64,000 nucleotides of DNA from Planctomycetaceae bacterium (GTDB taxonomy: Bacteria; Planctomycetota; Planctomycetia; Pirellulales; Pirellulaceae): assembly GCA_027487485.1 (NCBI GenBank), contig JAIYDN010000018.1, forward strand, positions 124,001 through 188,000, in the 5' to 3' direction. Below, in pieces: positions 1-4,992 of this stretch. Every line of letters begins with the position of its first letter. Position 1 is the stretch's first letter. The position numbers were made by a program, and so were the translations under genes. The notes below the pieces were generated by a model. The model worked only from the letters and a program-made list of their open reading frames with translations, was not told the DNA's origin and did not search any database.

Positions 1-1405
1 TCGCTAAGGAATCAAGCGTGTATTTCTTGTCGATACTGCCCAACGGAACAGAAATGCTACGAAGATCTACGTCGCTGTTGCGAGGAGCATGGCATCCGAC
101 ACATCCGATCGAATGATAAAGCTCTTCTCCTCTCTTGGCAGCCGCCCCGTCCCCAGGTCGATCGATGAGATTTCCGGTCGAGGCGAGAAAACTAGCGATC
201 GCCATGCCCCTGTCCTTCTTCTCGTCTTCATTGAGAGCATGAAAGACATTTGGCATAGCCGTACCCGGCTTCGTGTCATGCGCATCCATGGTTAACGCAA
301 GTAGATGGTCGAACCGAATGCGAGATCCCACAGAGTCTAAAATCGGCCCTCGATGTGTGGTCAGCGATTTGTCCTCGCTGAGATGACACGCAGTACAACC
401 TAACTGTGTCACTAGCAACCGACCTGCTAAGTTTTCGTCGGCATACAATCTTTCCAATCCGGGCAGCAGCGGTTTTCGAGCCTCTTGTTCTGCGTTTCGG
501 GGTACCAGCCAGATGTTTCTGTACCGAATCGCATTGCCATGATCTTGCAAGTGAATTGGACCCGGGGCGCTTGACTCGTGCACTGGCGCTGCCGTTGTGA
601 TCCCAGGAACAGCAACAGCGTTCTGCACCACCACGCCGTTAAGTCGCACGGTCATTTTCGCATCGCTCTTTTTCTTCCCAGAAGCGTCGAACCGAGCCGC
701 ATCAAACTCCACATCATAGGTTTGCCAAGTCAAAGGAGGAAAGCACATATTGAGGTCGGGATCGCGCACCGAGTAAATGCCTCCCGTCTCATTGTTTTTG
801 CCGGCCAATCCAAAGGAATCCAGAACCTGTGTCTCGTAGCGACCTTGATGGTATACACCGCTATTTCCTCTCCCCTGCCCTTCGCGTTTTGGCGCAAAGG
901 GAGTTCGAAACTCGATATGTAAGCTGTAATCAGCAAAGCGTTCCTTGGTCGTTGCTCCTTGCATTAACAATCCGTCGGCAGTGCGACTTGCCCCTTGCTC
1001 CCATCGTTGATCCAGCGATTGCTGAGATCCATCAAAAAGGACAACAGCACCTTCAGGTGGTGGAGCATTTAAGGTAGGACTCATTCGCTCCGTTCGCATG
1101 AAATTTCGGCTTGCTACAATACTCTCAACGGTGTCGGAGTCTCCTTCAATCCGCTGAGGCTCGTTTCTGTCCCATCCAGCACCGGGCAGTCCCCCGGAGT
1201 AAATAACGATTTCAAAATCCCCGCTCCCTTGAGCGATTACTTGCATCCCAGCAGCCGTCGCGACGTATTCACCTTGAATCAAAAAATCGGGGTCCGACCG
1301 AGCAGTATCGGGCGAATCATGCTCCACATCCTTTTGTGCCCAAAGAACGGCCGAAAGTCCAGCAACCAACACCAGTGGCTTCAAGAGCGATATCAGAAGA
1401 TTCAT
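1..1405 (-). CDS. Secreted DUF1080 (LamG-like) protein with two cytochrome c motifs, partial
   Basis: This frame stays open from an ATG at 1405 to the left edge, so the C-terminus is missing (at least 468 residues). Residues 1-23 form a signal peptide ending near VLWA|QKD. A domain of about residues 115-300 has the look of DUF1080 (3-keto-disaccharide hydrolase, a concanavalin-like fold): it contains LFDG near its start, NSGVYHQGRYETQVLDSFG, and a W-x-x-YDVEFDA strand. Two c-type haem motifs follow, CTACH near residue 337 and CVGCH near 434, the second with the RGEELYHSIGCVGCH context of planctomycete cytochromes. Haem attachment implies export to the periplasm. DUF1080-cytochrome fusions are known in planctomycetes and are generally linked to carbohydrate breakdown, but the substrate cannot be read from sequence. 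The fold call is from motif memory; the haem sites are seen directly. Confidence 0.82.
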   Translation of the reverse strand, partial: MNLLISLLKPLVLVAGLSAVLWAQKDVEHDSPDTARSDPDFLIQGEYVATAAGMQVIAQGSGDFEIVIYSGGLPGAGWDRNEPQRIEGDSDTVESIVASRNFMRTERMSPTLNAPPPEGAVVLFDGSQQSLDQRWEQGASRTADGLLMQGATTKERFADYSLHIEFRTPFAPKREGQGRGNSGVYHQGRYETQVLDSFGLAGKNNETGGIYSVRDPDLNMCFPPLTWQTYDVEFDAARFDASGKKKSDAKMTVRLNGVVVQNAVAVPGITTAAPVHESSAPGPIHLQDHGNAIRYRNIWLVPRNAEQEARKPLLPGLERLYADENLAGRLLVTQLGCTACHLSEDKSLTTHRGPILDSVGSRIRFDHLLALTMDAHDTKPGTAMPNVFHALNEDEKKDRGMAIASFLASTGNLIDRPGDGAAAKRGEELYHSIGCVGCHAPRNSDVDLRSISVPLGSIDKKYTLDSLA

Positions 1406-1523
1406 AGTTGTTCGGTACGAAACGAAATGCGGAAATCAAGCAGTGGGGTAATTATCCCCAAGAGTGTAGTTCATCGCTTGGCCCGAGTATAGAAAGACTC
1501 GCCAAAGCGATACACACTTTACC

Positions 1524-1571
1524 CTATCGTGGCAAGATTTCGTTGCTGCAGAAGCCGCTTTGGAATCCGTT
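1524..1571 (-). repeat. Orphan copy of the cvpA-like gene 3' end (direct repeat, left copy)
   Basis: Read on the minus strand, these 48 bases encode NGFQSGFCSNEILPR followed by TAG. They match 2645-2692, the last 48 bases of the CvpA-like gene (NGFQSGFGGNEILPR then TGA), at 43 of 48 positions. Similarity fades quickly beyond both ends, and no open frame leads into this copy. It is a displaced gene end lying between the vapBC pair and the DUF1080 gene. Confidence 0.9.
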
Positions 1572-1618
1572 GAGCTAGCATCAGCTTGAGAAACGCTAAG
1601 CTGGGCCTTGAGCCCTAG

Positions 1619-1752
1619 CGTCGCAATAGGTTTGGTGTGCTACCACCACCAAGCCCCAAGAAAGCCCCCGCGTTCAAGGGCCTTGTGCCCTACGAACGCA
1701 ACAGGTTTGGTCGGCTAAACGGGCTGTCTAGCACACCAAACCCGTTGCGACG
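1619..1752. repeat. Imperfect inverted repeat beside vapC
   Basis: Bases 1619-1642 and 1729-1752 are reverse complements at 22 of 24 positions. A third, related copy in direct orientation lies at about 1694-1717. The whole could fold into a long imperfect hairpin. It lies in the 429-base gene-free stretch between the DUF1080 start (1405) and the vapC stop (1835). No coding signal was seen in that stretch apart from the orphan cvpA end at 1524-1571. Confidence 0.75.
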
Positions 1753-1753
1753 T

Positions 1754-1770
1754 GTCGGGACGAGCCCGAC
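1754..1770. repeat. Short perfect hairpin (GTCGGG stem)
   Basis: GTCGGG at 1754-1759 pairs with CCCGAC at 1765-1770 across a five-base loop. It directly follows the inverted repeat ending at 1752 and is probably part of the same repeat block. There is no T-run, so it is not a typical intrinsic terminator. Confidence 0.6.
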
Positions 1771-1834
1771 CGTCGCGGTGGCGTGCATGCGGGGAACGTC
1801 GAGAAAGGTGCCAAGCACAAATGGCACGGTACCT

Positions 1835-2236
1835 CTACCACTTTTCAACGACTAAATCTGGAATTGAGAGAAGGTCACTATCCGTCGTGACGACCTTACA
1901 GTCGCCGAGATTTAATGCGATCGCACCGACCATCATGTCGACGACTTGCATCGGCCTTCCTGTTTTTCGAAGCTCCGCCGCGAGGATTCCATATCGGAAT
2001 GCTGCCTCTTGGTCGAACGGCCAGACGGCTAGAGACGACAGAGCGCTCAGGAATCGTTGCATGTTCTGTTCGCGGCTTTTGCTTCCCTCGATACCAAAGG
2101 CAATCTCGGCAACGACTGGAACACAAGTCCCGATGCGTACCCGCTGGGATGCTAACTCCTTGACTCGGTCGTAAACCGACCGTCGTCGGTTTATGAAGTC
2201 GCTTAAGATTCCGCTATCCAGGAGTAGCTTCTTCAC
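1835..2236 (-). CDS. vapC: VapC-type PIN-domain toxin (ribonuclease)
   Basis: A 133-residue PIN-domain protein of the usual VapC length. The acidic metal-binding residues expected for the family are present: D7 in LLLDSG, E44 in VVAEIAFG, D100 in VVDMMVGAIAL and D119 in VTTDSDL. The family cleaves RNA, often tRNA, until bound by its antitoxin; which RNA is cut here is unknown. Translation starts at GTG (2236-2234), and this start overlaps the antitoxin stop as GTGA, typical of translationally coupled toxin-antitoxin genes. The neighbour at 2233-2526 is the presumed antitoxin. All catalytic residues look intact, so the toxin is probably functional. The pair is flanked by direct repeats of the cvpA-like gene end. 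Confidence 0.9.
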   Translation of the reverse strand: MKKLLLDSGILSDFINRRRSVYDRVKELASQRVRIGTCVPVVAEIAFGIEGSKSREQNMQRFLSALSSLAVWPFDQEAAFRYGILAAELRKTGRPMQVVDMMVGAIALNLGDCKVVTTDSDLLSIPDLVVEKW

Positions 2237-2526
2237 TCAAACTGGCCCCCGAGCTTTTTAGCTCGTGAATCAAACTGGGATTTTTCCCAGCCAGCTGATT
2301 CTCTTGCAGCTTGGCTAAAATCTTCACCATTTTCATCTTCGGGAAAAGCCGACGCAAAGGATTCCATAGCAGTAAGGGTTCTTTGAAGCTCTGAATCATC
2401 CATCTGTTCGGCATCAGGCAAGTTCGATGCAAGCATCAATAATGCGACATGCGTACCGTCCGCCAGTTCGCTTGGTGCTGCAACCTCGATTTTCCCATTC
2501 CTAACGGTTCCAGTAAGCTGGATCAT
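2233..2526 (-). CDS. Probable VapB-type antitoxin
   Basis: A small protein of 97 residues directly upstream of vapC with a 4-base overlap. The N-terminus MIQLTGTVRNGKIEVAAPSE resembles the beta-hairpin DNA-binding start of AbrB/MazE-type or planctomycete VapB antitoxins (a strand, a G-K-I-x-V turn, then a proline). The middle and C-terminus are acidic and probably disordered, ending QFDSRAKKLGGQFE, as expected for the toxin-wrapping part. The frame is open upstream to 2583, but the ATG at 2526 is preferred because GAAGGA lies eight bases before it and the upstream residues look noncoding. Autoregulation of the pair is expected from the family; an operator was not identified. The antitoxin role is inferred mainly from position. 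Confidence 0.8.
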   Translation of the reverse strand: MIQLTGTVRNGKIEVAAPSELADGTHVALLMLASNLPDAEQMDDSELQRTLTAMESFASAFPEDENGEDFSQAARESAGWEKSQFDSRAKKLGGQFE

Positions 2527-2644
2527 CTTCAAATCCTTCGCACCAAGACGGTAATCGCATTGCCATGTGGCATTATACTCCATCTAGGTGTTGATTTACA
2601 CTACTTTTCAGACGTGTGTTATGATCATGCTGTGCCGATCGCAA

Positions 2645-2692
2645 TCATCTTGGCAAGATTTCGTTGCCGCCGAAGCCGCTTTGGAATCCGTT
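2645..2692 (-). repeat. 3' end of the cvpA-like gene (direct repeat, right copy)
   Basis: The last 48 bases of the CvpA-like gene, including its TGA, are matched at 43 of 48 positions by 1524-1571. The 1.07 kb between the copies carries vapBC and a palindromic repeat block. Confidence 0.9.
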
Positions 2693-3574
2693 GGGCCAAC
2701 CTGAACTGTTTTGCTGCGGAACCGAGTTATTGGGCCATGTTTGTTGGTTGGTGTTGCCCGCCCCACCCCATGGCACGTTGCTGGGGAAGCCATTGGAGCC
2801 CCCCTGCCCTGCCCCGTTTTGGCCTGCATTCGGTTGTGCCCCATTCGGTTGGACTGAATTTGATTGCCCACCGCCGAAGCCGAAGAAACCACCGACATTG
2901 TCTTGCTGCTGCCCCCCCTGCCCTGCCCCGGTGAAAAATCCGCCCGGCTGCTGAGGGTTGCTGAGCGCTTCGTTTCCGAACTGTGAGACTCGATCTTGCA
3001 ACATCTGGCCAAGTCCATCCAGTGGACCAGGTTGTGATGGCCCCGCTAGGCCGTTTTGATTCTGCTGCAATCGTTGCTCGACGTTGTCAATGTAAGGACC
3101 CACAATTTGCTTGAGCTCCGCTGGCAAAAGCCCGTCCGCGCTTGCCAAGATACGAGTGATGTAAAGTCCGCTGCGCGAGTTCGCTATGCGCTGCTGTTGC
3201 GACGAACCCAAAAGGGTCATCGCGAACATCGTGATGATCAAACACAACAGCATCCCTTTGAGCAGCCCAAAGCCCGCTCCCAAATGCCGATCGAATTCCT
3301 TGAGCCGAACTTTGTCGATCGAGGTGCTCACCAAACGAAAGGCCATCCAAATGATCAAACTGGAACCAAAGTAAAGCAACAACATGGCCAAAAAGACATT
3401 CCAAGGGGGCTGAGCGTTGATCATCTTGGCTACGTCATTGCGGAAAAAATTCGCAATGAAGTAACTGGCCACGATCGAAGCTAGCGAAGCCAATTGCCAA
3501 GCAAACCCCTTGATCGCACCAAAAATGGTGGTTGCGGCCAAGACTATCAACATGATCAAATCGTACGCCTGCAT
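2645..3574 (-). CDS. CvpA-family membrane protein with Q/N/G/P-rich tail
   Basis: The N-terminal 160 residues are hydrophobic and fit the CvpA family: about four membrane segments starting MQAYDLIMLIVLAATTIFGAIKG, with the family-typical GxxKG turn and a later GAGFGLLKGMLLCLII segment. CvpA proteins are inner-membrane proteins linked to colicin V production and envelope homeostasis; the molecular activity is unclear. The C-terminal half (from about residue 190) is low-complexity, rich in Gln, Asn, Gly, Pro, Trp and Phe, and absent from short CvpA proteins. The start at 3574 is chosen over an upstream ATG at 3598 because AAAGGA lies about ten bases before it. The final 15 codons are duplicated at 1524-1571 beyond the vapBC pair. 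Confidence 0.82.
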   Translation of the reverse strand: MQAYDLIMLIVLAATTIFGAIKGFAWQLASLASIVASYFIANFFRNDVAKMINAQPPWNVFLAMLLLYFGSSLIIWMAFRLVSTSIDKVRLKEFDRHLGAGFGLLKGMLLCLIITMFAMTLLGSSQQQRIANSRSGLYITRILASADGLLPAELKQIVGPYIDNVEQRLQQNQNGLAGPSQPGPLDGLGQMLQDRVSQFGNEALSNPQQPGGFFTGAGQGGQQQDNVGGFFGFGGGQSNSVQPNGAQPNAGQNGAGQGGSNGFPSNVPWGGAGNTNQQTWPNNSVPQQNSSGWPNGFQSGFGGNEILPR

Positions 3575-3767
3575 GGCTAGCAATTCCTTTGAGGACATCT
3601 GTTCTACAATTTAAACAGTTGGGGACAACTGTTCTACATCGGGTGTTTTCGCCCTTTACAGGAGAAAAACAACCTGGGCTCGCGGACTATAGCGAAAACC
3701 ACCCCGTCAAGCGAATGTCAAAATGAGGCTGGAAGTGCCTATTCTTACGCCCTACCCTGCACTACGA

Positions 3768-3773
3768 TTGACA
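3768..3773 (+). promoter_or_regulatory. Possible -35 element upstream of nadA
   Basis: A perfect TTGACA lies here, with only weak -10 candidates 15-17 bases downstream (for example TAATGA at 3789-3794). If used, transcription would begin near 3800. That is past the ATG at 3784 and favours the nadA start at 3859. Confidence 0.3.
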
Positions 3774-3858
3774 TTCTGGGATAGTGCGTAATGAAATGCC
3801 TGCATTCCGCCCCAAGACGTGTCAAATTCAACCACACTCATTTTCGATTCACGGTCCT

Positions 3859-4992
3859 ATGAGTATCGCTCTCGAACCACTCCCCTTCCCTCCTTATCGC
3901 GAGCTAGGGAATGATGAACTCAATGCGAGAATTTCGGCTGCCAAGCAAGAACTTGGAAGTCGTTTGTTGATTTTAGGGCACCATTATCAACAAGACGAAG
4001 TCATCGCACATGCGGATTTGAATGGGGATTCGTACCAGTTGAGTAAAATGGCGGCGGACAGCCAAGACTGTCGGTCGATTGTTTTTTGTGGCGTTCACTT
4101 TATGGCCGAGACGGCCGATATCTTGGTCAATCGTCCTGAAAAGCTGGAAGAACGCAACGGACATCGCGTTGGGGTGGTGCTGCCCGATATGGCAGCCGGT
4201 TGCTCGATGGCGGACATGGCAGCGATTCGCCAGGTTGAATCCGCTTGGAAGCAATTGGGCGAAGTGATCGACACCGAAGACCTGACCCCCGTTACGTACA
4301 TCAACAGCGCAGCTAGCCTGAAAGCATTCTGCGGCCGGCATGGCGGTATTGTTTGTACCAGCAGCAATGCCAAAGCGGTCTTGGAATGGTCCTTTGCTCA
4401 GCGCAAGCGAGTTTTCTTCTTTCCTGACCAGCATCTCGGACGAAACACTTCCCTAAAAATGGGAATCACCAACGACCAAATGCCGGTTTGGAATCCGCAC
4501 GAAGAAGAACATGGCGGGAATACAGAACAGGCGATACGAGATTCTCGCGTGATCTTATGGAAGGGGCATTGTTCGGTGCACCAAATGTTCCAGGCCGACC
4601 ACGTTCAGTCATTTCGCAAAAACCACCCCGGGATCAAAATCTTGGTCCACCCCGAATGCCCTCAGGAGGTGAACGACATTGCGGACATCTCCGGGTCCAC
4701 CAGCAAGATTATCGAAACGGTTCGAGCGGCACCGGCAGGTACCAAATGGGCGATCGGAACGGAATTGCACTTGGTGAATCGGCTGAAAAAAGAACATCCC
4801 GAACAAGAGATCCACTTTTTATCGCCGCTGGTTTGCATGTGCGCTACTATGTATCGGATCGACTTGGCTCACTTGTGCTGGAGCGTCGAGAATTTAGTCC
4901 AAGGCACCATCGTCAATCAGATTATCGTTCGTGAAGAAATTGCGAAGTGGTCACTGGTCGCGTTGGAGCGAATGCTAAAAGTCTCTAAATGA
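3859..4992 (+). CDS. nadA: Quinolinate synthase A
   Basis: NadA condenses iminoaspartate with dihydroxyacetone phosphate to quinolinate in de novo NAD synthesis, using a [4Fe-4S] cluster in the cytoplasm. Hallmarks are LGHHYQQDEV near the start, CGVHFMAETADIL, INSAASLKAFCGRHGG, the WKGHCSVH segment, LVHPECPQEV, and SPLVCMCATM near the end. By comparison with characterised NadA proteins, cluster ligands are probably the Cys of CGVHFM, the Cys of GHCSVH and one of the two in VCMC. The protein (377 residues) is of the longer NadA type. An ATG at 3784 would add 25 residues with no family likeness, so 3859 is preferred. No nadB or nadC lies nearby, so the gene seems to stand alone. Confidence 0.95.
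   Translation: MSIALEPLPFPPYRELGNDELNARISAAKQELGSRLLILGHHYQQDEVIAHADLNGDSYQLSKMAADSQDCRSIVFCGVHFMAETADILVNRPEKLEERNGHRVGVVLPDMAAGCSMADMAAIRQVESAWKQLGEVIDTEDLTPVTYINSAASLKAFCGRHGGIVCTSSNAKAVLEWSFAQRKRVFFFPDQHLGRNTSLKMGITNDQMPVWNPHEEEHGGNTEQAIRDSRVILWKGHCSVHQMFQADHVQSFRKNHPGIKILVHPECPQEVNDIADISGSTSKIIETVRAAPAGTKWAIGTELHLVNRLKKEHPEQEIHFLSPLVCMCATMYRIDLAHLCWSVENLVQGTIVNQIIVREEIAKWSLVALERMLKVSK

Follow-up and report, generated by a model that had tools for sequence, protein, structure and literature searches.

Organization of the locus

The DNA analysed here, which we call the window, is a 64-kb stretch of a 317-kb contig (C109) from the genome of a Pirellula-like planctomycete (G000). The features of interest lie on its minus strand, in the order CvpA-like gene, vapB, vapC, a palindromic block, an additional left copy of the CvpA gene end, and a DUF1080 gene. 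The CvpA/Colicin_V-type gene (2645–3598, minus strand; 317 aa in the ORF list) matches PF02674 with an E value of 3.6e-24 and has a low-complexity C-terminal tail that ends in NGFQSGFGGNEILPR. It is followed by the gene for a VapB-like antitoxin (2233–2526, minus strand), 97 aa long from its likely start at 2526 in an ORF that opens at 2583, and by the gene for a VapC-like PIN toxin of 133 aa (1835–2236, minus strand; PF01850, E 5.1e-12). Next come a block of GTAG-headed, REP/BIME-like palindromes (about 1577–1798, minus strand) and, beyond the left copy, the start of the DUF1080 / 3-keto-disaccharide hydrolase gene (4–1405, minus strand; PF06439, E 7.7e-33), which runs off the left end of the window. 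On the other side, nadA (quinolinate synthase; 3784–4992, plus strand; TIGR00550 over cut-off) is the divergent neighbour of the CvpA-like gene. The approximately 1.06 kb between the two copies of the gene end is filled by vapB, vapC and the palindromes. The ORF list and Pfam reveal no integrase or transposase in this unit, where the Pfam run covered the vapB and vapC ORFs alone.

The end of the CvpA-like gene is duplicated

A preliminary description of this DNA had reported two matching gene ends, at 1524–1571 and 2645–2692, and our comparison bears this out. The two segments are identical at 43 of 48 bases, whereas the best 48-mer match was 27 in 60 dinucleotide-keeping shuffles of window positions 1–2600, counting either strand. 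Reading both copies on the minus strand confirmed that each carries the last 15 codons and a stop: in the right copy the 317-aa ORF terminates with NGFQSGFGGNEILPR before its stop, the left copy gives NGFQSGFCSNEILPR before its own, and 13 of the 15 residues are the same. The left copy was also correctly described as having nothing open upstream, as stops shut the reading frame immediately before it. The duplication is thus real, but its extent had to be revised from 48 to 61 nt, since the ungapped repeat reaches from 1526 to 1586 on the left and from 2647 to 2707 on the right, with 52 of 61 bases identical. The right copy lies within the intact CvpA-like gene, and the left copy is decayed. 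A one-strand self-comparison of the window found only two direct repeats of at least 50 bits within 5 kb, the other being an internal repeat of a transporter gene (5495/6041).

The homology ends within the stop codon. With the edge marked by a slash, the left copy reads CGA T/AG GGT and the right copy AGA T/GA TTG, and both sides still encode a stop, TAG on the left and TGA on the right. Such an edge would suit a native TAG end, with the first bases of an insert giving the GA on the CvpA side. If an element had brought in a whole gene end, one would not expect the homology to break off at this point. We detected no other remnant of CvpA in the DNA that separates the two copies.

The left copy is present in a sister genome

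Another genome of the genus (G002), whose DUF1080 protein is 94% identical, has the left copy at the corresponding position (L086). There it is flanked by palindromes of the same kind on one side and by the DUF1080 gene on the other, and it has lost its stop codon. Since the left copy occupies the same position in both genomes, it is not an assembly artefact and predates the split of the two species. The G002 contig stops in the REP block, short of the place where vapBC and CvpA would lie, and no other contig spans the region; a VapC match is absent from the G002 genome, which is 77% complete. With the left copy and REPs visible in G002 and no VapC match in the genome, vapBC may have come later. 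This speaks for a two-step history, in which a short piece of the CvpA end was copied first, in tandem or from a template in the course of repair, and separate later events added the REPs and vapBC. That the REPs lie immediately next to the left copy in G000 as well as in G002 is a further point for this history. On the other hand, this history needs two or three events where one would do, and no other CvpA remnant lies between the copies. We consider it a plausible history, though we lean against it.

The left copies of G000 and G002 are identical at 50 of 61 sites, and compared with the right copy the values are 52 of 61 for the G000 left copy and 49 of 61 for that of G002. The shared age of the left copies follows from their position; the sequences by themselves do not prove it. 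At the 11 sites that differ between the left copies, the right copy agrees with G000 at seven and with G002 at four, and it differs at five of the 50 sites that the left copies have in common. As none of the 61 sites shows three different bases, all three copies go back to a single sequence of 61 nt. The two species differ at 11 sites within the 61 nt of the left copy and at 11 within the adjoining 120 nt before DUF1080, which indicates that the copy is less constrained than its neighbour. Judged from these sequences, the duplication does not look functional, whether it arose in two steps or by insertion. The extra gene end appears to be real, old and decayed, and it may be the scar of an insertion.

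CvpA and DUF1080 loci in relatives

A CvpA match was present in 57 of the 60 genomes searched, our own included. None of the 23 other CvpA loci of the genus yielded another copy of our gene end (matches of at most 22 nt); three of them have less than 1.1 kb after the gene, so that a copy as distant as the one described here could be missed in them. The genus genomes G002, G006 and G010 offered no usable CvpA locus. No second gene end was found in the 12 contigs tested among 14 named contigs (matches of at most 25 nt), which represent largely the same genomes with longer flanks. The C-terminus is similar in near relatives, and the GFGGN of the right copy also occurs in L011 and is changed in the left copy.

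The neighbours of CvpA are not conserved. We did not find nadA, vapBC or DUF1080 beside CvpA in the loci of 29 relatives (up to 1.5 kb on each side) or in the 14 named contigs (up to 10 kb), nor CvpA near DUF1080 in 18 DUF1080 loci of relatives. The ORFs upstream of DUF1080 in six loci differ from that of the window and mostly from each other, with one shared by L091 and L092. A SerB-like gene directly follows CvpA in L051 and L053; in G000, a SerB-like gene (L068, 6621–7856) lies about 14.8 kb from CvpA on the same strand, with the DUF1080 gene between them. No empty site, with a single gene end leading straight into DUF1080, was found among the 29 CvpA loci, 14 contigs and 18 DUF1080 loci, since none of them has CvpA next to DUF1080. 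Likewise, we saw no relative with two gene ends and without vapBC, the visible part of G002 consisting of the left copy and REPs.

The vapBC pair is intact and patchily distributed

Between the two copies, both vapB and vapC are open, in agreement with the preliminary description, and the toxin carries a PIN domain (PF01850). Solved relatives of VapC are 3zvk_A (E 4.6e-10) and 6ifc_A (E 1e-6), and they include VapC of the tRNA(fMet) type; the match to NF047863 remains below the cut-off. VapB has no Pfam or NCBIfam family match. The vapB ORF (2233–2583) overlaps vapC, with the antitoxin gene upstream. By its PIN-domain toxin and the adjacent small upstream antitoxin gene, the pair is a predicted type II vapBC system. 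It is like tRNA(fMet)-type vapBC in its 133-aa PIN toxin overlapping an upstream antitoxin gene and in its solved VapC relatives; it differs from known vapBC in an antitoxin outside the Pfam and NCBIfam families.

The distribution of vapBC in the genus is patchy. Of the 27 genus genomes, our own included, 11 have a VapC match, and in four (G000, G013, G014 and G016) it is full length without a stop. VapB homologues adjoin VapC in L070–L073 and L084. In G016, a near relative of vapB (L084, 81% identical) lies beside a broken vapC, and a C-terminal fragment of vapC is located on another contig (L080). DNA homology with the L084 vapB relative begins at window position 2613, 31 nt from the right copy, which indicates that an edge of the unit is nearby. 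The GC content is 52.7% for vapC and 47.6% for vapB, compared with 51.4% for the window. Plasmids, phages and viral contigs contain distant VapC relatives (below 60% identity) or none, the best identities among the matches listed being 34% and 28%, and no phage, plasmid or viral vehicle for vapBC was found among them.

The palindromic block is a dispersed repeat

The palindromic block between the copies had been described as part of the island. It is present there, but it is not island-specific: we counted at least 47 matches elsewhere in the genome, part of which overlap one another and all of which fall within 1577–1798, with 40 of the 71 candidates scored. The block shows GTAG heads and hairpins (z −2.98 for 1584–1700). 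It is a dispersed REP-like repeat that need not belong to the vapBC unit, and most repeats near the locus are ordinary dispersed palindromes. GTAG-tagged REPs occur in the PVC superphylum, as reported in PMC3733652. Our block is like the GTAG-tagged REP/RAYT palindromes described there in its GTAG head, its hairpins, its dispersal and the presence of Y1_Tnp genes in the genome; it differs in that only two of the 11 Y1_Tnp loci found here carry a block match in their available flanks.

These repeats also bear on the idea that vapBC belongs to a chromosomal integron as one of its cassettes, with the palindromic block as its attC site. Three integron-integrase-like genes exceed the TIGR02249 cut-off in G000, and block-like repeats lie at most 0.7 kb from two of them. 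However, the repeats show GTAG heads and hairpins, those in the two clusters examined are mostly separated by kilobases and form no cassette-like array, and repeats also lie beside two Y1_Tnp genes; moreover, the insertion of a cassette would not duplicate a gene end. We dropped the idea because of the GTAG heads, the cluster spacing and the Y1_Tnp neighbours, and regard it as scarcely credible. As a separate observation, the integron-integrase-like genes in L039 (G000:C85:1-2915) and L040 (G000:C110:21743-24656), both over the TIGR02249 cut-off, lie near contig ends and share a near-identical upstream stretch of roughly 75 nt, estimated by eye, with GTAG-headed palindromes following.

Site-specific integration as an improbable alternative

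The duplication had been likened to that left by att-type integration. In this case, a satellite island would have integrated site-specifically at the gene 3′ end with the help of a tyrosine recombinase acting in trans, and the two copies would be attL and attR. The site does lie at a gene 3′ end and the gene is kept whole. The repeat length of 48–61 nt also agrees with that of att repeats in protein genes, for which it is the usual range. Other points speak against this reading. The TIGR02249 integrase model, which is not narrow and has weaker matches in all 14 control genomes, finds 13 matches in the genome, and none of them is on contig C109; the edge of the duplication lies inside the stop codon; and none of the 23 genus loci shows a second gene end. 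A genomic island at a gene 3′ end with an att duplication is e14 in icd. The locus is like such islands in that the gene end is duplicated and the gene kept whole; unlike them, it has no integrase that we could find, is very small, has its edge inside the stop codon and shows nothing else at the site. Site-specific integration is thus an improbable origin of the two copies.

Direct repeats at other VapC loci

We surveyed 63 of 95 PF01850 matches. Most of these are frames no longer than about 190 aa, and a few score below the family cut-off. Six long YacL-type frames were used as controls, together with 23 CvpA and 17 DUF1080 loci (46 in total). We left out the remaining 26 matches, which comprise long frames as well as some that are weak, short or at a contig edge. 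A flanking direct repeat pair of at least 45 bits was detected at 12 of the 63 VapC loci, the window among them, versus 1 of 46 controls, in counts that are not independent because they include orthologous and overlapping loci. We inspected eight of the remaining 11 VapC loci by sequence, and none is a clean, unique duplication of a host gene. The repeats of L143 and L178 look REP-like, that of L155 resembles a dispersed repeat with transposase-like pieces, and L159 and L204 look repetitive. The dispersed status of the repeats was judged by eye except for the PT-HINT case below, and L175 (the same locus as L072), L190 and L200 were taken from table rows. This excess points to repeat-rich DNA as a frequent setting of VapC genes, in keeping with the two-step history, and does not establish target-duplicating insertion. 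The sole control with flanking repeats, the CvpA locus L013 of G014, has them on either side of CvpA (1231–1357 and 2350–2475; about 127 nt, 81% identical).

Further candidates were examined and rejected. In G014 (L070/L125), a vapC homologue (62%) lies between direct repeats of about 575 nt that resembled a longer target duplication, and the repeat turned out to be a many-copy dispersed PDDEXK_2 element. At L125 2587–5530 (G014:C153), vapBC and a 285-aa ORF lie between two copies of this element. In G003, G009 and G019 (L156, L170 and L182), another vapBC lies by duplicated pieces of a PT-HINT-like gene, which has as many as 19 matches in a genome, often as fragments; the PT-HINT-like assignment itself is a Pfam match below the cut-off. 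The repeats span 179 nt within L156 (272 nt for its first copy versus L170) and 38 nt in L170; L182 is the same insertion as L170, and its strongest flanking pair is a different repeat of 187 nt. Since cassette shuffling in a polymorphic-toxin region explains this arrangement as well, we did not count it as support.

A last candidate comes from G000 itself. In L064 (G000:C6:60001-66000), a 58-nt internal piece of a squalene-hopene-cyclase-like gene (2218–2275) recurs at 4635–4692 with 91% identity, and within 1648–4692 the second fragment copy is on the far side of a REP block and the gene of a ParE-like toxin (PF05016). We rejected it as an insertion footprint, because the host gene continues past the copy. 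A stray gene fragment that accompanies REPs and a toxin gene and does not fit a simple footprint favours the two-step history for the window as well.

Discussion

An old vapBC insertion with target duplication is our best reading of the locus, held with slightly less than even confidence and closely followed by the two-step history. An insert of about 1.06 kb carrying vapBC (about 1587–2646) would have joined the CvpA-like gene at its stop codon and duplicated 61 nt of the target, so that vapBC and the second gene end would go back to one event. The upstream DNA would still join the right copy, keeping the CvpA-like gene whole, and the native downstream DNA, i.e. the stretch before DUF1080, would still follow the left copy, which would since have decayed. 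The last stop-codon bases of the right copy would have been supplied by the edge of the insert, T/GA in place of the native T/AG. The mechanism may have been illegitimate insertion with a long target duplication, as for restriction-modification units, rather than site-specific integration, and the REP block would have entered or expanded separately, beside the insert.

The insertion is favoured by the arrangement itself, as the copies flank vapBC once, with continuity of the gene on the right and of the DUF1080 side on the left. It is also favoured by the orthologous place of the G002 left copy, the 23 genus loci without a second end, the patchy occurrence of vapBC, the unit edge near 2613 and the lack of another CvpA remnant between the copies. 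Long, variable target duplications described for restriction-modification units in PMC3874152 lend it further support. It is weakened by the fact that no empty site was found and that the G002 contig ends before vapBC. In addition, the left copies are no closer to each other than to the right copy, and the eight other inspected VapC loci and L064 yielded no clean footprint. The preliminary description had proposed that a small island entered the 3′ end of the gene. Of this proposal, the left copy stands as a decayed CvpA end, shared with G002 and not seen at 23 other genus loci, together with a patchy vapBC. The att-type duplication is not supported, and the palindromes are a separate dispersed element.

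According to PMC3874152 and PMC3031569 (also PMC2654758 and PMC4978471), restriction-modification units are reported to insert with long, variable target duplications, for which the first two cite Nobusato et al. (2000) and Furuta et al. (2010). The locus is like these in that a small addiction-type unit lies between direct copies of host sequence, which in restriction-modification units are variable and long (of the order of 100 bp), with no transposase or integrase in the unit. It differs in that the unit is a vapBC pair, the target is a gene 3′ end, no empty site was found and the case consists of a single locus. Among the papers on this topic that our searches of the open-licence PMC literature listed, we saw none that describes vapBC inserting with a long target duplication. 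By analogy, planctomycete vapBC pairs might generally move as self-contained units with long target duplications and no integrase or transposase of their own, a generalization that we regard as rather doubtful.

If the insertion reading is true, a mode of movement described for restriction-modification units would extend to a toxin-antitoxin pair, on the evidence of one footprint whose left half is common to two species. If it is false, the locus would be a modest example of the way in which gene fragments, REPs and toxin-antitoxin genes accumulate between planctomycete genes.
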